Source: Alphaproteobacteria bacterium (GTDB lineage Bacteria > Pseudomonadota > Alphaproteobacteria > UBA9219). Taken from it: DNA of 54,929 bases. The stretch spans positions 1 through 54,929 of the forward strand of contig WREW01000006.1 of NCBI GenBank assembly GCA_009779135.1, given 5' to 3'. Below, piece by piece: positions 10,643-42,294 of the stretch; positions within the stretch are counted from its first letter, which is position 1, and every line of letters starts with the position of its first letter. The notes under the pieces are model-generated. The model was not told the origin of the DNA. It saw only the letters and a list, made by a program, of their open reading frames with translations, and ran no database searches. The translations under genes and the position numbers were made by a program.

Positions 10643-10691
10643 TTGTCATTGCGAGGAAGGCCGGCGAAGCCGGCCTTCCTCGCAATGACAA
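10643..10691. repeat. Family B palindromic repeat, short perfect form
   Basis: Near-perfect 49-base palindrome with arms TTGTCATTGCGAGGAAGGCC and its complement around GGC-GAA-GCC. It sits exactly between the convergent HscB-like and EAL-like genes, where its hairpin could work as a two-way terminator. Other copies: 17624-17739, 26921-27024, 41412-41454 and a partial one at 36229-36266. Confidence 0.9.
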
Positions 10692-17623: not shown

Positions 17624-17739
17624 ATTGTCATTGCGAGGAGAGCCGCTGTAGCGTAGCGAAGGCGGATGGACGCGGCAATCTCGGCGACATCGGGAACGAG
17701 ATTGCCTCGTCAGGCCTTTGGCCTTCCTCGCAATGACAT
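17624..17739. repeat. Family B repeat, long form
   Basis: Outer arms ATTGTCATTGCGAGG and CCTCGCAATGACAT enclose inner arms GGCAATCTCG / CGAGATTGCC. The same outer/inner design is seen at 26921-27024, so the long form is a two-level palindrome of about 105-115 bases. Confidence 0.85.
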
Positions 17740-26920: not shown

Positions 26921-27024
26921 TGTCATTGCGAGGAAGGCCTTCAGGCCTGACGCGGCAATCTCTGTACCGGCGTTGCCGAGATTGCCGCGTCAATCCGGCT
27001 GCGCCGGCTTTCCTCGCAATGACA
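26921..27024. repeat. Family B repeat, long form
   Basis: Outer arms TGTCATTGCGAGGAAGGCC / GGCTTTCCTCGCAATGACA with inner arms GACGCGGCAATCTC / GAGATTGCCGCGTC. It lies nine bases after the acetyltransferase stop, between convergent genes, and may end transcription of both. Confidence 0.88.
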
Positions 27025-27045: not shown

Positions 27046-27732
27046 TTAGAAATTACGGAAAGCTAGGGTGAAGTTTTTCGGGGGGATTAGTTTTTCTCGC
27101 TCAAACGCGCGATCCGTCTCGGCTATATTTCCGATTGTTTTTTCGCCGAAGGAAAAGGCGTTTTGGATGTAGTAGGTTCCCTTATAAGACAAATTATCCA
27201 GATGGCGGATGATGGCGTTGATGTCGGTCTCGTCCGTCAAAGGTGTATAGACGGTTGTGCGCACCTCGAAGGTTATGGCGGCTTTGATGAGCAGTTCAAG
27301 CGAGGCTTCGATATTTTCCGCGTGTTTGTTTGTGCCGACAAGTTTTTCCATTTTCTCGGGCGTGGTTTTGTAGTCCATGGCTACATAATCCAAGAGGTTT
27401 TCTTTCAAAAGGCGGGCCAAAATTGTTGGGCGGGTGCCGTTGGTGTCCAGTTTGACAAGAAAGCCCATCTCTTTGATTTTTCTCATCAAATCGGGAAGAT
27501 TTTCGTAAAGTGTGGCCTCGCCGCCGGAGAAGACGACGGCGTCAAGTTTGCCTTGGCGGATTTTTAGAAAGGACAAGACCTCACTTTCTTCCTTTTCGCC
27601 GTGGCTTTGCACGATGGCGGGGTTGTGGCAGAAAACGCAGCGCATGTTGCAGCCTGCGATCCAGACAATGCAGGCTATCTTTTGGGGATAGTCCAAAAGT
27701 GAGAAAGGCGTGATGTCATAGATTTTGGGCAT
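27046..27732 (-). CDS. nrdG: Anaerobic ribonucleotide reductase activating enzyme (radical SAM)
   Basis: 228 aa. It uses S-adenosylmethionine and a 4Fe-4S cluster to create the glycyl radical on NrdD. The radical SAM cysteines C28, C32 and C35 are in A-G-C-N-M-R-C-V-F-C-H-N-P, followed by the F-S-G-G-E-A glycine-rich SAM-binding stretch at about 93. The N-terminal I-T-P-F-S-L-L-D-Y-P resembles the NrdG type found with stand-alone class III reductases and differs from the shorter E. coli type. The ATG at 27732 is placed by homology; upstream codons come from a repeat. It is downstream of nrdD, separated by a 158-base gap filled by repeat A. Confidence 0.92.
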   Translation of the reverse strand: MPKIYDITPFSLLDYPQKIACIVWIAGCNMRCVFCHNPAIVQSHGEKEESEVLSFLKIRQGKLDAVVFSGGEATLYENLPDLMRKIKEMGFLVKLDTNGTRPTILARLLKENLLDYVAMDYKTTPEKMEKLVGTNKHAENIEASLELLIKAAITFEVRTTVYTPLTDETDINAIIRHLDNLSYKGTYYIQNAFSFGEKTIGNIAETDRAFEREKLIPPKNFTLAFRNF

Positions 27733-27766
27733 GAGAACATAATCCAACCATATTGCGCCCCCCCCC

Positions 27767-27880
27767 CTTGTCATCCTCGGGCAACCACGAAGTGGTTGAG
27801 CCGGGGATCTGACGTTAGAACTATGCTCTGGCGTCAGATCCCTGGGTTCTTGCTTCGCAAGCCCCGAGGATGACAAGGGG
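27767..27880. repeat. Family A repeat, long form, between nrdD and nrdG
   Basis: Outer arms CCTTGTCATCCTCGGG and CCCGAGGATGACAAGG, inner arms GGGATCTGACG and CGTCAGATCCC. It would fold into a long hairpin in the nrdDG transcript. It is very similar to 31211-31321. Confidence 0.9.
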
Positions 27881-27890
27881 GGATAGTATT

Positions 27891-29897
27891 TTAGCAGACA
27901 GCCTTGCTTTGCTCCAGATGTTCGCAAATGGCTGCTTCGGTGAAGTGGCGGCGTTCGCGGTGTTCGCCCTTCTTGCCGATGTTAAAGCTGTCCACGGGGC
28001 GGAAATAGCCCATCACGCGAGTCCAGACCTGTGTGCGCTCCTTGCAATGGGGGCAGACGGGTTGTTCGCCTTTTAGGTAGCCGTGCGTGTCGCACACCGA
28101 GAATACGGGCGTGATCGTAACATAGGGCAGCTGGTATTCCGTCAGCACCGCTTTGACGAAACGGCGGCAGGAGTCGGCGGAGTCCAGACGCTCATTCATA
28201 TACATGTGCAAAACCGTGCCGCCTGTATATTTGCATTGCAGCTTGTTTTGAAGGTCAAGCGCGGCAAAGGGATCTTCCGTATGTGTGGCTGAGATCTGGG
28301 AACTATTGGTATAATAGATGTTCATGCCTTCGCCTGATTGCACGATGCCGGGGAAGCGTTTGTGGTCTTCCTTGGCAAAGCGGTAGGTCGCGCCCTCAGC
28401 CGGTGAGGCTTCGAGATTGTAGAGATTTCCCGTCTCTTCCTGATAAGTGCGCAGGCGGCCCCGAATATGGTCGAGAAGACGCAGGGACATGACGATGCCT
28501 TCTTCTTTTGTCATGTCATATCTGCCGCCGGAGAAGTTCAGCAGCATCTCATTCATGCCATTGACGCCGATGGTGCTGAAATGGTTGCGGAAGCTTGACA
28601 GATAGCGGCGCGTGTAGGGGTAAAGGCCGCGCTCGAACATGTCGTTGACGAAGACGCGCTTTTTCTCAAGCGTGCTTTTGGCCATGTCCATCAGGCGGTT
28701 CACCGCTTCAATGAGGCCTGCCTCATCCCCCTTATGCTTGTAGCCAAGGCGCGCCATGTTAAGCGTGACAACGCCGATGGAGCCCGTCATCTCAGCCGAG
28801 CCGAACAGGCCGTTGCCGCGTTTTTGCAGCTCCCGCAAGTCAAGCTGAAGGCGGCAGCACATGGAGCGCACGGCCCCGGGCTTATAAGCATCCGGATTTT
28901 CAACAACACGGCCATTTTCATCCCTTTTATACTGGCTGCCGATGAAGTTCTGGAAATAGGAGCTTCCCACCTTAGCGGCGTTTTCGAAAATTGCGTCAGC
29001 GATTTTGCTGTCCCAGTCGAATTGCTCGGTGACATTGATGGTCGGGATGGGGAAGGTGAAAGTTTGATGGGTGGCATCGCCCTCTGTCATGACTTTGTAG
29101 TAGGCGATGATGATACGCTCCATCTCCGGCACAAAGTCGGCATAGGTCATTTCCGAAAGGCTTTTGATATTCGGGCGGCGATATTTGGCCAGAGCCAGGA
29201 GATGCGTGGCTTCGTCCTCCTTGAGCTTGGTGAAAAGATGATCGCCCCGCGCCATGGGCATTTGCTCCTTGAGGTCGTCGGGGACGGTGATGTCAAACGT
29301 CACGTTGGTGAAGGGCGACTGGCCCCAACGCGCGGGGACATTCAGATTATACACGAACTGGCGGATGGCCTTGATGATGTCCTTGTCGCTAAGCTGATCG
29401 CGGAAGACATAAGGGGCCAGATAAGTATCAAAAGAGCTGAAAGCCTGCGCGCCCGCCCATTCGGATTGCAAGATTCCAAGGAAATTGGCCATCTGCCCCA
29501 AAGCCTCGCGGAAATGACGCGGCGGGCGGGAGGAGACGCGGCCTTGGACGCCGTTAAAGCCCTCGGACAATAACTGGCGCAGACTCCAGCCCGCGCAATA
29601 GCCCGCAAGACAATCCAGATCATGGATGTGATAATCGCCTTCGCGGTGCGCGCGGCCTTCTTCCTTGGTATAGACTTCATCCAGCCAGTAATTGGCGATG
29701 ATCTTGCCCGCCAGATTATTGACGAGGCCCGCTTGACTGAATCCTACATTCGCATTTGCATTGACGCGCCAGTCCGACTTGCTCAGATACTCGTCCACCG
29801 ACTCCGAGCAGTTGATCTGGGTTCCCGTGATCTGGGAATCCCTCACCTCTTCACGAGGCCCGAACGGAAGCACTTTTGCGGTCGCTATCTCAGCCAT
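27891..29897 (-). CDS. nrdD: Anaerobic (class III) ribonucleoside-triphosphate reductase
   Basis: 668 aa. It makes deoxynucleotides without oxygen using a glycyl radical. The radical glycine is G630 in T-R-V-M-G-Y-F, near the C-terminus. Just before it, a zinc site C-D-T-H-G-Y ... C-P-H-C uses C-x-x-H plus C-x-x-C; many relatives have C-x-x-C twice. The active-site cysteine region is M-C-C-R-L-Q-L-D. There is no N-terminal ATP-cone, so dATP feedback through a cone is not expected. The ATG at 29897 (GGGGG ribosome-binding site) is chosen over a longer frame. A perfect FNR box lies upstream at 30023. Together with nrdG it permits DNA synthesis in anoxia. Confidence 0.96.
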   Translation of the reverse strand: MAEIATAKVLPFGPREEVRDSQITGTQINCSESVDEYLSKSDWRVNANANVGFSQAGLVNNLAGKIIANYWLDEVYTKEEGRAHREGDYHIHDLDCLAGYCAGWSLRQLLSEGFNGVQGRVSSRPPRHFREALGQMANFLGILQSEWAGAQAFSSFDTYLAPYVFRDQLSDKDIIKAIRQFVYNLNVPARWGQSPFTNVTFDITVPDDLKEQMPMARGDHLFTKLKEDEATHLLALAKYRRPNIKSLSEMTYADFVPEMERIIIAYYKVMTEGDATHQTFTFPIPTINVTEQFDWDSKIADAIFENAAKVGSSYFQNFIGSQYKRDENGRVVENPDAYKPGAVRSMCCRLQLDLRELQKRGNGLFGSAEMTGSIGVVTLNMARLGYKHKGDEAGLIEAVNRLMDMAKSTLEKKRVFVNDMFERGLYPYTRRYLSSFRNHFSTIGVNGMNEMLLNFSGGRYDMTKEEGIVMSLRLLDHIRGRLRTYQEETGNLYNLEASPAEGATYRFAKEDHKRFPGIVQSGEGMNIYYTNSSQISATHTEDPFAALDLQNKLQCKYTGGTVLHMYMNERLDSADSCRRFVKAVLTEYQLPYVTITPVFSVCDTHGYLKGEQPVCPHCKERTQVWTRVMGYFRPVDSFNIGKKGEHRERRHFTEAAICEHLEQSKAVC

Positions 29898-30299
29898 ATT
29901 TTGTCCCCCAAAAATCCCTTTCTTATGCGGCACATAAGCAGGGCAGTGTTCATGAAATCTGCAATTAACCACAAGATGAAGATGTGATGATGGTATTAAA
30001 CCACAAAATCTAGTGTGCCATCTTGATATAGATCAAGTTAAGACAAAAAGAAAGATTAAGATTCCTTTCTAAAAATTAACGCCCGAACGGCACGTTGATG
30101 ACATGATTCAGCTATGACGCCATTCAAAACGAAAGCGTTCCGAATGTATGAATCTTAATAGCACAAAAGGCCCGCCAAATAAATTGCAGACCATGGGGGC
30201 GGACAAAGATTTCTGGGGACATCTCTGTGGGTAAGCCGCGCGGTGGCGCATACGGGGGAAGGGCGGCTGGAAGGCTTTGGACGGCTCTTTGGAGCTGCC
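29898..30299. other. 402-base regulatory/intergenic region upstream of nrdD
   Basis: It holds the nrdD leader and promoter (about 29985-30040), including the FNR box. The remaining part toward ubiV is non-coding by eye. A 28-codon frame at 30148-30234 on the + strand has no ribosome-binding site and is not called. Confidence 0.7.
30023..30036 (-). promoter_or_regulatory. FNR/ANR box of the nrdDG promoter
   Basis: TTGAT-ATAG-ATCAA is a perfect match to the FNR consensus, extended by C and G to a 16-base palindrome. On the minus strand a -10-like TTTAATAC lies at 30000-29993. The box centre would then stand about 42 bases before transcription start, the classical activating position. The box is about 126 bases before the nrdD ATG. 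Confidence 0.8.
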
Positions 30300-31199
30300 C
30301 TATTTCCCTTTTGCAACGAAAGAAAGGCCCGCTTGGCCGTGGTAATAGCCGTTGAGGGGCTTTAGTGATTCTTTCAGCTCTTTCAGGCGATTAAGGACAG
30401 ATTCGCCCGAGATTCGACCGGCCAGAAAACCCTCATACAGCCGCGCAAGGGCAGTCATATCCATATGATGCGGCGAAATACGGAAATATGTGACTCCGGC
30501 GCAGGCCAGTTCTTGGGCCTCATCCAGCAAGACAAGATAATCATGCGATAGGGTTTGCGTGCCGTTGATGGCCAGAAGCTTTTGGCCGCTTAGCGTGCTT
30601 ACAGCAAGGCCATCGGGATCGTCCGCGCAGGCAAAGCGGCATTCATCTTTGGTTTTTCCATGCGCGCGCGCGTGATAGCAGCGCATAGCGATGGCCAAAG
30701 GCTGGCGCCCGAAAATAAGAACTTCCTTGTGTGTTTGCGGCGCATGCGCGGCGAGGATTTGAAGCGATTGAGCCGAAAGCTCAGATGCAAAGCAAAAGCG
30801 CGTGGCGCCTTTTTGGATCAGCGCTGTCATGGCGCCTTCATTCAGCACATTGATAAAGGGGCCGACCACAAAGGGGCGGTCTTTCAGGATCTGGATGGCG
30901 GCGACATCATTGGCTTCAATCAAAAAGCCTTCCTGCGCCAGCGCGTGCAAAGCCTTTATTTCACGCGGTTGCGTCAGCATGGCGAGGCTTGAAAGAATAA
31001 TCTCTTTGCCGCCACGGTGCAGTCTTTCGATCACCTCGTGAAAATAGGGCGTGAAAAAGGATTCACGTTTGCTGCAAATAACCTGACCGAGATAGACACA
31101 GGAAAAGGGGGCTTCATCGGCAATGCGGAAATAAAAATCGCGCATGGTTTCTGCGGGCCAGTGGAAGAAAAGCGGGCCTAAAGTCAGGCGAGGGATCAT
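30300..31199 (-). CDS. ubiV: Oxygen-independent ubiquinone hydroxylation protein UbiV (U32 family)
   Basis: 299 aa, a peptidase-U32-type protein that works with UbiU and UbiT in anaerobic ubiquinone synthesis. The four cysteines expected to hold the 4Fe-4S cluster are C42, C174, C187 and C191. The last three have the same 13- and 4-residue spacing as E. coli UbiV (C180, C193, C197). The N-terminal L-T-L-G-P-L-F-F-H-W-P fits UbiV, whereas UbiU begins with M-E-L-x-C-P-A-G. It is the third gene of ubiTUV, separated from ubiU by a 142-base gap containing repeat A. The ATG has an AGGGGGTG site upstream. Confidence 0.9.
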   Translation of the reverse strand: MIPRLTLGPLFFHWPAETMRDFYFRIADEAPFSCVYLGQVICSKRESFFTPYFHEVIERLHRGGKEIILSSLAMLTQPREIKALHALAQEGFLIEANDVAAIQILKDRPFVVGPFINVLNEGAMTALIQKGATRFCFASELSAQSLQILAAHAPQTHKEVLIFGRQPLAIAMRCYHARAHGKTKDECRFACADDPDGLAVSTLSGQKLLAINGTQTLSHDYLVLLDEAQELACAGVTYFRISPHHMDMTALARLYEGFLAGRISGESVLNRLKELKESLKPLNGYYHGQAGLSFVAKGK

Positions 31200-31210
31200 A
31201 CTACACCCCC

Positions 31211-31321
31211 TTTGTCATCCTCGGGCAACCGCGAAGCGGTTGAGCCGGGGATCTGACGATGGAACGATGCTTTGGCGTCAGATCCCCGGGCGCTTGCTTC
31301 GCAAGCCCCGAGGATGACAGG
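31211..31321. repeat. Family A repeat, long form, between ubiU and ubiV
   Basis: Outer arms TTTGTCATCCTCGGG / CCCGAGGATGACAG, inner GGGGATCTGACG / CGTCAGATCCCC. It lies in the presumed ubiTUV transcript. Confidence 0.9.
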
Positions 31322-31341
31322 GTGAGGAGAGGTCGATTTTG

Positions 31342-32313
31342 TCATCGCCAGCCCTTTTGATAGGCGCCGAGAGTCTGGCGCGAACCTTCGGCCAGTTCAT
31401 GCAAAGGCTTTGATGCGGGGGTTTTTTGTCCGTCAAGCGCTGCGCGGAACTGGCTGACGACTTGCGCGACATAGGCTTTGGAGCGCTGGCGGCCTTCTAT
31501 TTTCAGGGCGGTGACTCCGGCTTTTTGGAGCTGCTTTAAAATCTCGATGGCGTTCCAGCCTACGGGCTCTTCAAACAGATAGGAGGCTTGGCCGCGCGTG
31601 ACATAGCGTCCTTTGCAGGGCGTGGGATAGGCAGCGTTTTCATGGCGCGCAAAGCGGTTCAGCGTGACATCACCAAGGCAGGAAAGAATGCTATCGCCTT
31701 CCTCCTTATAACGCACATGGGAGGCTGGGGCGCAGACTCCATCGCAGCTTGGCGAAAGGCCGGTCATGAAGGAGGATAGAAAGCATCTTCCTTCCGACAT
31801 GGTGCCGACGCTGCCAAAACAGAAGACTTCCGTTTCAACGCCTGTTTCTTTTGTAAGTGCCGCAATTTCGGGCACGTCCAAAACGCGCGGTAGAACGACA
31901 CGTTTGACGTCATAGACATCACGGTAAAAAGCAATGGAAAGCGCGTTGGATGCCGCAGCTTGAACGGAAAGATGACGCCTTAGATCAGGATAATGGCGTT
32001 TGGCGTAATCAAGCAGGCCGATATCGGCAAGAATGATTGCGTCAACGCCCAAGGCAGCGGCGCGGTCAATGGCGCGGTGCCATGGCTGCGGATTTCCGGC
32101 GCGGGCAAAAGTATTGATGGCGATAAAGATTTTGCGGCCATGCGCGTGCGTAAAGGAAACGGCATTTTCCATTTCTTCATCGTCAAAATTAAGCCCGGGA
32201 TAGTTCCGCGCGTTTGTGGCATCACGAAAGCCGCAATAAACGCTGTCTGCGCCTGCCTTGATGGCGGCCTGCAAGGCGGCGGAGGTTCCGGCGGGGCAGA
32301 CAAGTTCTAGCAA
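31342..32313 (-). CDS. ubiU: Oxygen-independent ubiquinone hydroxylation protein UbiU (U32 family)
   Basis: 323 aa from a TTG start at 32313, chosen because GGGAGG stands five bases upstream and the protein then begins M-L-E-L-V-C-P-A-G, as UbiU does. The start overlaps the ubiT stop. U32 features include N-A-R-N-Y-P-G-L-N-F and M-S-E-G-R-C-F-L-S-S. Cysteines C177, C194 and C233 have the spacing of the last three cluster ligands of E. coli UbiU. The position of the first ligand (about 170) is glycine, with C165 five residues earlier; C190 and C212 are further candidates. It should form a UbiU-UbiV heterodimer that hydroxylates the quinone ring without O2. Confidence 0.9.
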   Translation of the reverse strand: MLELVCPAGTSAALQAAIKAGADSVYCGFRDATNARNYPGLNFDDEEMENAVSFTHAHGRKIFIAINTFARAGNPQPWHRAIDRAAALGVDAIILADIGLLDYAKRHYPDLRRHLSVQAAASNALSIAFYRDVYDVKRVVLPRVLDVPEIAALTKETGVETEVFCFGSVGTMSEGRCFLSSFMTGLSPSCDGVCAPASHVRYKEEGDSILSCLGDVTLNRFARHENAAYPTPCKGRYVTRGQASYLFEEPVGWNAIEILKQLQKAGVTALKIEGRQRSKAYVAQVVSQFRAALDGQKTPASKPLHELAEGSRQTLGAYQKGWR

Positions 32314-32777
32314 AGAGGCCTCCCTAAAGGCCCGAGGGCGGCGCGCATTTCCGCGCAAAGATCTATCGTCTCGCGGTCAAGCGTGTTGCGCAGGCCGACA
32401 ATCGCCTCGGTGTCGCCTGTGATTTGAAGGTCGCGTGTAAAGAAAAGCTGATCGCCATCAACTTCGCCTTCAAGCAGCGCGACAAGGCTTTGAAGCGATC
32501 CTGTGATTTTGGCCTCGTGCGGCGGGTTTTGTTCTTTGGTCAGCGTAAAGGTGAGCGGCGTTTGGCCGAGCGTCAAAAGAAAGCCAAACCGGACGTCTGT
32601 GGGAAGAATATAAACCCGCACCGGCGCAAGCGCCGCAAGGTTTTTCACCAGCGAAGGATGCCGCCGTTTGGTCTGCGCCACCACCATCGCCAGCAGCCGC
32701 TGCGCCAGAGTAAAAGGCACATAACGCGCAAAAACACGCATCAAAGGCAAAGGGAGGGATGTTTGCGATAAAGCCAT
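32307..32777 (-). CDS. ubiT: UbiT-like SCP2-domain protein of anaerobic ubiquinone synthesis
   Basis: 156 aa from the ATG at 32777 (a TTG at 32816 is an alternative). The C-terminal two thirds form an SCP2 lipid-binding domain: F-G-F-L-L-T-L-G, then A-K-I-T-G-S-L-Q-S-L-V-A-L-L-E-G-E-V-D-G-D-Q-L-F-F-T-R-D-L-Q-I-T-G-D-T-E-A by segments. It has the D-L-x-x-x-G-D-T/E ending typical of UbiT and the aerobic UbiJ. UbiT is thought to hold lipophilic intermediates for the anaerobic hydroxylases. It overlaps ubiU and follows an unknown 326-aa gene by a few dozen bases on the same strand. Confidence 0.85.
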   Translation of the reverse strand: MALSQTSLPLPLMRVFARYVPFTLAQRLLAMVVAQTKRRHPSLVKNLAALAPVRVYILPTDVRFGFLLTLGQTPLTFTLTKEQNPPHEAKITGSLQSLVALLEGEVDGDQLFFTRDLQITGDTEAIVGLRNTLDRETIDLCAEMRAALGPLGRPLC

Positions 32778-32819
32778 AAGGCTTAAAGCCTTAAAGATCT
32801 TTAGGGGAAAGTACAAGTC

Positions 32820-36228: not shown

Positions 36229-36266
36229 TGTCGCGGCAGGCCTTGCGGCCTTCCTCGCAATGACAA
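36229..36266. repeat. Family B repeat, right-half remnant
   Basis: GTCGCGGCAGGCCTTGCGGCC followed by TTCCTCGCAATGACAAGG corresponds to the right part of family B; the left TTGTCATTGCGAGG arm is missing. It lies between divergent rodA and purQ. Confidence 0.7.
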
Positions 36267-39458: not shown

Positions 39459-39854
39459 ATGATTCTCCACAACAGTCAGGCCATGTCCACAACTCCCACG
39501 CCCCGCGCGCAGCGTTTGATTGACCCTTCCGTTCTTGACCGCATTCAGGGCGAGGTTGATTCAAACCATGTCGTTCTTTTTATGAACGGGACTCCTGTGT
39601 TTCCTTTATGCGGCCCCTCGGCGCAGGCGGTGCAGATTTTGGGGCTGCTTGGCGTGCGGTATAAAAGCATTGATGTGACGACAGATCCAAGCCTGCGGCT
39701 TGCCATCCGCGATTTCAGCGACTGGCCGACTTTGCCGCAGCTTTATGTGCTCGGGCATTTTATCGGCGGCAATGACGTCATGCGCCAGATGCTTGAAACG
39801 GGTCGGCTTCAGGAATTGTTTGCGATGTGCGCGATTCCTATGGCGGATTATTGA
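39459..39854 (+). CDS. grxD: Monothiol glutaredoxin (Grx4/GrxD-like), variant CGPS site
   Basis: 131 aa, slightly extended at the N-terminus (an ATG at 39483 is an alternative start). Family pattern: V-V-L-F-M-N-G-T-P, then the active site P-L-C-G-P-S, A-Q-A-V-Q-I-L, and later W-P-T-L-P-Q-L-Y-V and G-G-N-D. Standard members read C-G-F-S; the phenylalanine is proline here. With BolA it should form a 2Fe-2S carrier complex. The stop overlaps the end of the convergent Crp/Fnr gene by seven bases. Confidence 0.92.
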   Translation: MILHNSQAMSTTPTPRAQRLIDPSVLDRIQGEVDSNHVVLFMNGTPVFPLCGPSAQAVQILGLLGVRYKSIDVTTDPSLRLAIRDFSDWPTLPQLYVLGHFIGGNDVMRQMLETGRLQELFAMCAIPMADY

Positions 39855-41365
39855 AAAACTTCCCAAGCTTTTTTTGCGATTTGTATAGGCTGGCAGTTGG
39901 TGGCTTCGGCGCGGCAGCAGCGCTGGGACATTTCAGGATCACAAAAGCGGCATAGAGCATGCGCGTGCGGCATGGTGATCTGGTCTTTTTCAATCGTAAA
40001 ACCTTCTTTACGGAAGTTGTTTAAAATACGCGAGAAGGTTTCGGGTTTGATATTCAAATAAGTTGCGATCAAGGCTTTATCAAAAGGAAGCTTTAGCGGC
40101 GCGCCTTCAAGGCCGGTTTCAAGATAAAGATTGGCGAGAAACCATCCCACACGCTCCTGCGCGGTTTTCAAGGTGAGCTGCTCGAACTGAGTCACAAGGC
40201 CTTGCAGGCGCATGGTTGTTGCGACAAGGAGATTTTGCGCAAGCTCGCGCGAGCGCGAAGCGTGATCGCGCAGAACAGGCAAAGAAAGCGCAAGAAGGCT
40301 GGCGCGCGTCACGGCCTTGGCGCTTGCGGCCGCCAAAGAGGCGTGGAGAAAATCCGTATCAAGCAAAGCTTCGCGTTTGCTGACGAGTTGAAGGACGGAC
40401 TCTTGGCCTTCGGCTGAGGTTTTGTAGGTGTTCACCCATCCGTCAAGCACGATGAAAAAGCGGCTCACGGCCTGTCCTTGCGTGATAAAGACGTGACCTT
40501 TGGGCGCGTCAATCAGGCGCGCGCCTTTCAACAGATTGCGCAAGGTTGCTTCGGGCAGGCCTTGGAACAAAGGCATGCTACGCAAGGATGGCAGGCGGTG
40601 CTCGATGTCGCTATCAAGTGCTTTTTCGTAAGGCGCGAGCAGGGCCAGCTCCTGCCCTTGCTGCGCAAGCGCGGCTATTGTTTGCGTTAAGGCCTGATGC
40701 AGGGCGCTGATTTCTTCATTCATGCAAGACAGCCAATCAAGCAGGGGCATGCCGGCCAGAAGCTCCTTAGCGCGGCCTCCCTTGATGGCGCGGACTACAT
40801 GATCTGTTTCGCCTAGAACGCTTTTGTGGTTTATGCGCTCTCTGTCGATCATTTGCTTGAGCGTGTTGTCCGCAAGGCCGAGGTAAAGACGCTCTCGCGC
40901 AAGGTAGCCTGTGGCGTCATTGGTCAGGCGCTTGTTGTCAAAGGGCGTGATTTCAGCTTTGGCGTACACCATCACGCCGTCATCGCGCAGCGCGGAAAGT
41001 TCACGCAAGGCCGCAATGAAATGGACAAGCGCACTGGTTTGCGCCGGTGTAAAGCGCGGGTTGTCGGTGAGCAAAGCTATGGCCGTCTGGTGAACGGGCT
41101 GTTCAAGATGGATGGTGTACCATTCAAACAAAGACGGCGGCGGCATGGATGAAAGAAAAGACGGATCCTGCCTGAGACGCAAAGCTTCTTTAAAGCGCGC
41201 GGGCAGCAGCGTTTGAAACATGTCGTTTTTTTCAAGTACGCGCAGCGTTTCCTGAAAAGTGTCGGGGGGCGTCTCAGGGCGACAAAAGGCGGGAAGGAGC
41301 GCCTGACCGCGTTCTTTTTGCAGGTCATAAAGAAGTGATAGCGTGCTGATAAGGGTTTCTGTCAT
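39848..41365 (-). CDS. Crp/Fnr-type regulator with NIT-like N-terminus and C-terminal cysteine cluster
   Basis: 505 aa, twice the usual Crp/Fnr size. Residues about 1-210 are all-helical. L-L-Y-D-L-Q-K-E-R-G near the start and G-Y-L-A-R-E-R-L-Y-L-G later resemble the L-Q-x-E-R-G and E-x-x-x-x-E-R landmarks of the nitrate/nitrite-sensing NIT domain. A cyclic-nucleotide-like barrel follows (about 250-365; F-I-T-Q-G, F-F-I-V-L-D-G-W-V), then a winged helix whose recognition helix has E-T-F-S-R, keeping the E, S and R that contact TTGA half-sites in FNR/CRP. The end holds C472, C475, C483, C484 and C491, possibly an Fe-S or zinc site; FNR's own cluster cysteines are N-terminal. It may regulate nrdDG through the box at 30023, which is inference. 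The start at the ATG (41365) is preferred to a TTG at 41383. Confidence 0.8.
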   Translation of the reverse strand: MTETLISTLSLLYDLQKERGQALLPAFCRPETPPDTFQETLRVLEKNDMFQTLLPARFKEALRLRQDPSFLSSMPPPSLFEWYTIHLEQPVHQTAIALLTDNPRFTPAQTSALVHFIAALRELSALRDDGVMVYAKAEITPFDNKRLTNDATGYLARERLYLGLADNTLKQMIDRERINHKSVLGETDHVVRAIKGGRAKELLAGMPLLDWLSCMNEEISALHQALTQTIAALAQQGQELALLAPYEKALDSDIEHRLPSLRSMPLFQGLPEATLRNLLKGARLIDAPKGHVFITQGQAVSRFFIVLDGWVNTYKTSAEGQESVLQLVSKREALLDTDFLHASLAAASAKAVTRASLLALSLPVLRDHASRSRELAQNLLVATTMRLQGLVTQFEQLTLKTAQERVGWFLANLYLETGLEGAPLKLPFDKALIATYLNIKPETFSRILNNFRKEGFTIEKDQITMPHAHALCRFCDPEMSQRCCRAEATNCQPIQIAKKAWEVFQ

Positions 41366-41411
41366 AACGGGGTATTGTGTCAATTATTAGCCTTCCTCCG
41401 CAAGGGAAAAA

Positions 41412-41454
41412 TTGTCATTGCGAGGAAGGCCTGAAGGCCTTCCTCGCAATGACA
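41412..41454. repeat. Family B palindromic repeat, short form
   Basis: TTGTCATTGCGAGGAAGGCC and its complement around a TGAA centre. It lies between the end of the unknown gene at 41467 and the regulator gene, both on the minus strand. Confidence 0.9.
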
Positions 41455-41466
41455 GATGGGGAAGGG

Positions 41467-42186
41467 CTAAGAGGGCCTCATATGGTCGCCATAGCCGCGC
41501 ATGTGGGTCATGGGGGCGCGGGTTTTATCGAGATTTTGGAAAATATTCGTGATGGCCTGCTGAAAGGCCAGAAAGCGGTTTTCCATGGCGGCGCAATAGG
41601 GCCAGTTTTTTTCCTTTGTTGCCTCGGGAAGCTGCAGGCCTATGGCGGTTTCGTGCAGAATATGGCTTTGGTCGAGGTGGGCGAGGATGTCGAAAAAAAC
41701 TTCCTCGCGGCGCTTTATGTGTGCGATGTGGGGGAGGGCTTCTTCAAGATTCCAGCCTTTGGATGTAAGTTTTTTTTGGAGATCATTATTCATCGCTTCG
41801 CTTGTTTCGGCAAGATATAGGAAGTGGATCAGGCGCGTGATTTCTTCCTGTATTTTTCGATCAAGCACATCGAGATCATCCTGCGCGGCGCGTGGCGCAT
41901 AATGGCCAAGGGTTATCATCGTCAGGCGATAACCGCCCGCGCGCATTTTCATCAGATGGCGATAAGAAGCGGGCATGTTGGCAACGTCAAGTTCGTCAAT
42001 GGCGAGGTTGTCGGCTTCTTGCAAAATCTCAAACTGGCGCACGGCGGCCCAGCTTACGGTGTTTTCGATAAGATCAGGCGCGTACCATACATGCGTCTGC
42101 GCATTTTTTGCGATGCGCTGGATATAGGAAAAACCGGCTACAATGCGCCGTCCGGTTTGCGGCGTTCTGAAAAAACGCGGAGGCAA
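41467..42186 (-). CDS. Unknown helical protein directly downstream of a TPP riboswitch
   Basis: 239 aa from a TTG codon at 42186. The start is supported by AGGGAG nine bases upstream, which is part of the riboswitch's own 3' strand. The protein is soluble, mainly helical, and rich in histidine and glutamate (I-H-F-L-Y-L-A-E, A-H-I-K-R-R-E-E-V-F-F-D, H-L-D-Q-S-H). I cannot assign it to a thiamine enzyme or transporter; TenA was considered but its motifs are not evident. Position after the riboswitch implies control by thiamine pyrophosphate. The possible operon is pncB-pncA-riboswitch-this gene. An ATG start further in would leave a much shorter protein. Confidence 0.65.
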   Translation of the reverse strand: MPPRFFRTPQTGRRIVAGFSYIQRIAKNAQTHVWYAPDLIENTVSWAAVRQFEILQEADNLAIDELDVANMPASYRHLMKMRAGGYRLTMITLGHYAPRAAQDDLDVLDRKIQEEITRLIHFLYLAETSEAMNNDLQKKLTSKGWNLEEALPHIAHIKRREEVFFDILAHLDQSHILHETAIGLQLPEATKEKNWPYCAAMENRFLAFQQAITNIFQNLDKTRAPMTHMRGYGDHMRPS

Positions 42187-42192
42187 GACAAG

Positions 42193-42266
42193 AAACTCCC
42201 TTCGCCGGCATGATCCGGATCAGGTTCAACGGGTATCATCTCAGCCCAAAAGGCACCCCGGTTGTT
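42193..42266 (-). promoter_or_regulatory. TPP (thiamine pyrophosphate) riboswitch
   Basis: On the minus strand the aptamer reads CCGGGGTGCC, then GGGCTGAGATGATACCC, GTTGAACCTGATCCGGATCATG, and CCGGCGAAGGGAG by segments. These are the conserved THI-box blocks (GGGGUGCC, CUGAGA, ACCCG, AACCUGAUC-UGGAU-like, GCCxGCG-AGGGA). P1 is short. The downstream TTG start at 42186 lies only seven bases past the aptamer, and the AGGGAG ribosome-binding site is inside it. TPP binding would therefore hide the site and stop translation. Confidence 0.95.
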
Positions 42267-42294
42267 GAGAGGTTAGAAAAAGCGGGAAAAATTG

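Follow-up and report, generated by a model that had tools for sequence, protein, structure and literature searches.

The 54,929-nucleotide contig analyzed here (the window), from an alphaproteobacterium of the UBA9219 lineage, encodes a regulator that we read, with a probability of roughly 0.6, as a one-component, FNR-like activator of anaerobic genes with a variant domain order: an NIT-type sensor bundle, a Crp/Fnr barrel with its dimer helix, an FNR-type helix-turn-helix (HTH), and a C-terminal cluster of four cysteines (Cys4) (Table 1). The grounds for this reading are the homology of the N terminus to NIT domains, the conservation of the four cysteines, synteny of the family with nar, ubiTUV-nrdDG, or hemN, FNR boxes, a PETFSR recognition helix, the standing of the protein as the only Crp/Fnr member of its genome, a low dN/dS for the NIT part, and the precedent of ubiTUV in Escherichia coli. 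Weighing against it are the absence of an FNR box within one mismatch upstream of ubiT or of the regulator in the window species, the position of most exact boxes of the genome inside unrelated genes, the boxes near 12 of 30 non-Cys4 homologues, and the lack of nitrate metabolism among the genes found. Judged from alignments, the combination of C-terminal cysteines with NIT and Crp/Fnr is a genuine and conserved architecture. The NIT-Crp fusion is undescribed in the open-access literature searched, although such an absence is weak evidence; within that literature the full NIT/Crp-Fnr/Cys4 combination is likewise undescribed, and it is a variant of the FNR/NarR kind.

Table 1. Positions in the window of the regulator, its parts, and the linked anaerobic genes
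Feature	Position	Strand	Basis and remarks
NIT-like/Crp-Fnr/C-terminal Cys4 regulator gene	39848..41365	-	ORF, 505 aa from ATG
Diverged NIT sensor domain (by homology)	40616..41365	-	Residues 1-250; hhalign, and orthologue L064 above Pfam cut-off
cNMP-type barrel	40265..40507	-	Residues 287-367; PF00027 (cNMP_binding), 1.1e-11
Crp-type HTH	39947..40156	-	Residues 404-473; PF13545 (HTH_Crp_2), 2.5e-10; recognition helix PETFSR
C-terminal cysteine cluster C472-x2-C475-x7-C483-x7-C491 (plus C484)	39893..39952	-	Conservation in homologues
nrdD, anaerobic ribonucleotide reductase	27891..29972	-	TIGR02487, 6.5e-127; likely target
nrdG, activating enzyme	27046..27927	-	TIGR02495, 3.9e-65; likely target
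ubiV, O2-independent ubiquinone synthesis	30300..31199	-	NF047965, 1.8e-100; ubiTUV faces the regulator in relatives
ubiU	31342..32358	-	NF047963, 3.9e-144; synteny with relatives
ubiT	32307..32816	-	NF047962, 1.7e-21; divergent from the regulator in L063, L064, L066, and L067
Perfect FNR-type box TTGATATAGATCAA	30023..30036	.	ubiV-nrdD gap; sole exact box in the window; likely target site (predicted)

The initial annotation had proposed a 505-aa reading frame with a barrel, a Crp-type HTH, the landmarks LQKERG, ARER, and ETFSR, and five C-terminal cysteines. All of these were located as claimed: the reading frame is real and lies on the minus strand, the plus strand being interrupted by stop codons throughout, and the three landmarks fall at residues 15 to 20, 156 to 159, and 442 to 446. 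The cysteines of the whole protein are residues 28, 214, 472, 475, 483, 484, and 491. A Pfam search returned the barrel followed by the HTH, both above their cut-offs, which places the protein in the Crp/Fnr superfamily, and a profile search of the host genome (G000; 1.545 Mb, 100% complete) found it to be the sole protein with a Crp/Fnr HTH. The true start may be a TTG at 41383, six codons upstream of the ATG, which would give 511 aa and is preceded at 11 nt by GGAGG. Just upstream of the gene lies a 239-aa reading frame (41467-42186, minus strand) with no Pfam or NCBIfam family above cut-off; a TPP riboswitch (RF00059, 70.8 bits; 42180-42270, minus strand) directly precedes that frame. An intergenic palindrome, GTCATTGCGAGGAAGGC with its complement, has 9 matches in the window where 0 are expected (sites at 41413-41454, 10645-10689, 17627-17737, 26922-27023, and 36248-36264); the one in front of the regulator forms a perfect 20-bp inverted repeat.

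Judged by homology, the N terminus is a diverged NIT domain, as the initial annotation had held, even though the curated profile does not reach it in the window copy: PF08376 was absent in a Pfam search with E values up to 5, whereas whole-domain comparison with true NIT domains does join the protein to them. The assignment rests on two results. A profile of six N termini, from the window protein and its closest relatives (L063 to L067; four from its genus and one from a neighboring genus), was compared by hhalign with five true NIT domains and matched them with an E value of 6.3e-10 (96.6%, 235 columns; profile positions 5 to 241), versus 0.21 for the reversed profile and 0.13 or worse for 20 column-shuffled profiles. 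In addition, the same-genus orthologue L064 exceeds the PF08376 cut-off (28.4 versus 24.9 bits). L063 and L067 score below it (22.3 and 18.4 bits), and L065 and L066 gave no match in the Pfam search. Alignment revealed six residues invariant in both the window group and true NIT proteins (R65, Y83, R127, G130, R146, and W211) and three nearly so (Q16, E18, and G20). R19, the arginine of the LQxERG motif, is present as well and presumably corresponds to R49 of NasR. The ARER residues, cited earlier as an NIT landmark, do exist but had been misread, as they align with a later NIT helix ('AEQKAYF') and not with the 'ERAL' motif, and R127...G130 occupies the ERA.G place; the conclusion drawn from them was nonetheless right. 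An AlphaFold model built from three sequences, the window protein and two relatives, was all-helical in this region, with a mean pLDDT of 44.7, too poor for fold comparison. That uninformative prediction and the missing Pfam matches in the window protein, L065, and L066 would fit an N terminus that is an unrelated helical bundle resembling NIT by chance, but we consider this very improbable in view of the margin over all 21 hhalign controls, the PF08376 scores of L064 and L063, and the membership of the window protein in an orthologous family with true NIT-Crp proteins.

Strong NIT domains are fused to the same Crp/Fnr part in five other Alphaproteobacteria, namely, an uncultured Kordiimonas and a Sphingomonadales MAG (PF08376, 5e-36 and 1e-37), genomes G709 and G753 (1e-40 and 4.9e-28), and genome G324, where the protein is incomplete at a contig end. 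A tree of the Crp part, built with the cysteine tail left out and rooted by midpoint only, placed the NIT proteins in one group (97/88 support) with those Cys4 proteins of the window's family that lack NIT, and the labels required 4 changes compared to 25.4 in shuffles. The simplest reading of this tree would be a single gain of NIT followed by one loss in sister genera.

Gene neighborhoods tie this group to life without O2. At the four strong-NIT loci with readable neighborhoods (4 of 5; L001, L002, L083, and L084), the regulator is divergent from narK-narK-narG, with narH next where the locus reaches and moaA downstream (narK, narH, and moaA named by NCBIfam); in L083 and L084, further downstream genes resemble molybdenum-cofactor genes. 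Among the closest relatives, L063, L064, L066, and L067 carry the regulator divergent from ubiT-ubiU-ubiV, followed by nrdD-nrdG where the contig reaches. In the window these genes occupy 27046-32816, 7 to 14 kb from the regulator and on its strand. NIT-less Cys4 relatives of the window's family adjoin hemN in several genomes, and in L077, from another family, the NIT-less Cys4 regulator sits among narK, ubiVUT, and narGH. In three genera, Cys4 regulators that lack NIT have a separate conserved gene downstream of them (L072 10704-11660, L073 1077-1748, and L074 10401-11282); it has no Pfam family in the two of three copies scanned, and in L072 and L074 an exact FNR box follows the regulator.

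Exact FNR boxes, defined as TTGAY-N4-RTCAA, fall at these same junctions: between the regulator and ubiT (L063, L064, L066, and L067), before nrdD (L063, L064, and L066), between the regulator and hemN (L068, L069, and L075), and, at all four nar-linked loci, both between the regulator and narK and between the regulator and moaA. Overall, an exact box lies at −350 to +150 of the ORF start in 17 of 26 Cys4 loci, versus 0.05 expected. As 12 of 30 non-Cys4 homologues also have one near the gene, the box characterizes the wider group and is not distinctive of the Cys4 clade. In the window species, no box within one mismatch was found upstream of ubiT or of the regulator, so that only nrdDG is a clear target there. 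The window genome contains 12 exact boxes; with the nrdD site set aside, the majority are embedded in unrelated genes and look accidental. A further candidate in that genome is an exact box some 260 bp upstream of the gene for a NiFe hydrogenase large subunit (L110 2471-2484; G000:C10:6370). By sequence, then, the regulator has both features of the FNR type, an E..SR recognition helix (PETFSR) and TTGAT-N4-ATCAA-type sites at anaerobic genes. The regulator dimer would bind TTGAY-N4-RTCAA and probably activate O2-independent pathways, with predicted targets in nrdDG in the window, ubiTUV in sister species, nar/narK/moaA in NIT orthologues elsewhere, and hemN in NIT-less relatives. Precedent comes from E. 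coli, where ubiTUV is under FNR control (PMC10470549), and from Pseudomonadota at large, where most ubiTUV loci are preceded by FNR-like sites (PMC11707229).

The five-cysteine cluster first described reduces to four that are general. C472, C475, C483, and C491 are invariant in 11/11 aligned NIT-Crp proteins, while C484 is restricted to the window's genus and one neighboring genus. The motif C-x2-C-x7-C-x7-C also occurs in 14 NIT-less Crp/Fnr relatives; the other homologues collected, which are mostly more distant, lack it, with one retaining three of the four cysteines. A second Crp/Fnr group (L030, L032, L061, and L062) carries a different C-terminal three-cysteine motif, of the C-x2-C-x5/6-C type, nearer in form to that of Bacillus FNR. 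RedB (PMC9603854) was considered as a C-terminal-cysteine relative and dropped, as the word 'cysteine' does not occur in the text of that paper. The C-terminal location had been called unusual, but it has precedent: Bacillus Fnr holds a C-terminal [4Fe-4S] cluster through three Cys and an Asp (PMC3520743), and a C-terminal Fe-S cluster is described for Gram-positive FNR in a 2026 review (PMC12937710).

By analogy, the four cysteines of the window protein would hold a [4Fe-4S] cluster in the absence of O2, keeping the DNA-binding domain active, and O2 would destroy this cluster as it does in Bacillus FNR. The same spacing could hold zinc equally well, and an account in which the cysteines bind structural zinc or serve as redox thiols, leaving NIT or the barrel as the only sensor, has to be weighed. 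We regard it as unlikely, given that the linked genes (ubiTUV, nrdDG, hemN, and nar) belong to O2-free life and that the one C-terminal cluster for which precedent was found in the Crp/Fnr superfamily is Fe-S (PMC3520743).

If the cysteines supply a redox input, NIT would be a second one: nitrate/nitrite in the nar-linked orthologues, and another or re-tuned ligand in the window's genus. The initial annotation had seen one protein integrating nitrate/nitrite with a redox or metal signal. For the nar-linked orthologues, genomic context strongly suggests the involvement of nitrate, and integration of nitrate with O2/redox is well motivated; for the window organism, which has neither nitrate reductase nor NarK among the genes found, the idea holds less well. 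A search for NarG in 24 genomes of the family came back empty, an answer that is by itself not proof. In the window's genus, a PF00384 protein occurs once per genome and measures about 690 to 730 aa, which we take to be the size expected of NuoG, and because this sole protein is NuoG-sized (positive controls were detected), the genus shows no sign of a Nar, Nap, or Nas enzyme. Likewise, the family members searched yielded no NarK, while the same search recovered its positive controls, and the genus yielded no haem-copper oxidase or NorB-type protein; a bd oxidase is present. From this gene content the organism looks micro-aerobic to anaerobic and non-nitrate-respiring. For want of a nitrate reductase, NarK, or haem-copper oxidase, the effector of NIT in this organism is uncertain, and the ligand may have changed; the redox half appears plausible there.

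One could suppose instead that NIT in this genus senses nothing and persists as a structural or dimerization part of an ordinary anaerobic regulator. Such a role would suit a genus without nitrate reductase or NarK, a domain below Pfam detection in the window protein, and the complete loss of NIT in sister genera. Selection speaks against it. NIT and Crp divergence stand in like proportion within the genus (e.g., 0.47/0.63) and in the nar-linked group (0.63/0.80 and 0.43/0.63), dN/dS for the pair L065-L066 is 0.136 in NIT and 0.076 in the Crp part, and the residues common with true NIT domains are retained. Relaxed selection on NIT was considered and is unsupported, given proportional divergence and the dN/dS of 0.136 in one species pair. 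NIT is kept by purifying selection and therefore does something, even without nitrate respiration, and we judge a non-sensing role somewhat unlikely.

The FNR-like activator reading can be extended, tentatively and with odds that we put below even, to a single AND-gate factor that would sense nitrate/nitrite through NIT and O2 through a Cys4 [4Fe-4S] cluster, replacing FnrP plus NarR, with NIT re-tuned in descendants free of nitrate reductase. At the genomic position of NarR, the protein family joins an overt nitrate-sensor domain to a candidate O2 sensor in a single chain, so that nitrate-dependent Crp/Fnr control becomes directly testable. Its cysteine cluster, at a C-terminal site that has otherwise been described for Gram-positive FNR, belongs to an alphaproteobacterial Crp/Fnr clade. 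The family also offers a natural experiment after loss of nitrate respiration, in which sister genera have dropped NIT and the window's genus has retained it in diverged form.

Among known systems, Bacillus FNR, a Crp/Fnr regulator of anaerobic genes, resembles the window protein in the placement of its cysteine cluster C-terminal to the DNA-binding domain. It differs in its ligands, C-x2-C-x4-C plus Asp, a motif that the window protein lacks; the latter has four Cys in C-x2-C-x7-C-x7-C, is alphaproteobacterial, and bears NIT, and its Fe-S cluster is putative. In FNR of the E. coli/FnrN type, N-terminal cysteines and one in the barrel hold the [4Fe-4S] cluster, an arrangement not seen here. 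The best sequence matches to the Crp part belong to the FtrB/DNR group (FtrB profile NF006901, 3.8e-28, but 98 bits against a cut-off of 211; DNR structure 3dkw, 1.6e-22); these cover residues 258 to 478 only, leaving out NIT and the cysteine tail. NasR of Klebsiella (NIT-ANTAR, PDB 4AKK), which the NIT domain of L002 matches at 6.6e-16, shares with the regulator a soluble, one-component design that begins with NIT, but its output is RNA antitermination by ANTAR, whereas the output predicted here is DNA binding by Crp/Fnr.

Expression of nar in Paracoccus requires two Crp/Fnr proteins, the O2-sensing FnrP and the nitrate-responsive NarR. NarR, a Crp/Fnr activator of nar, is held to sense nitrate/nitrite and is without an Fe-S cluster (PMC8139620). 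The Paracoccus Crp/Fnr protein that is NarR by position is encoded back to back with a narK1-narK2 fusion and narG, FNR boxes lying between them, and has neither an NIT domain nor terminal cysteines; two such NarR-like genes (L121 4992-5756 and L122 3935-4693) adjoin the fusion and are unannotated in their plasmid records. In Sphingopyxis granuli, an Fnr-like gene named 'ftrB' is divergent from narU (PMC7713065), and its product may be of the NIT/Cys4 kind. The window organism has no narG or narK among the genes found, and its regulator does not stand in this position, whereas the nar-linked orthologues in L001, L002, L083, and L084 occupy the place of NarR, divergent from narK-narG with FNR boxes between, and add to it the NIT domain and the terminal cysteines that NarR lacks.
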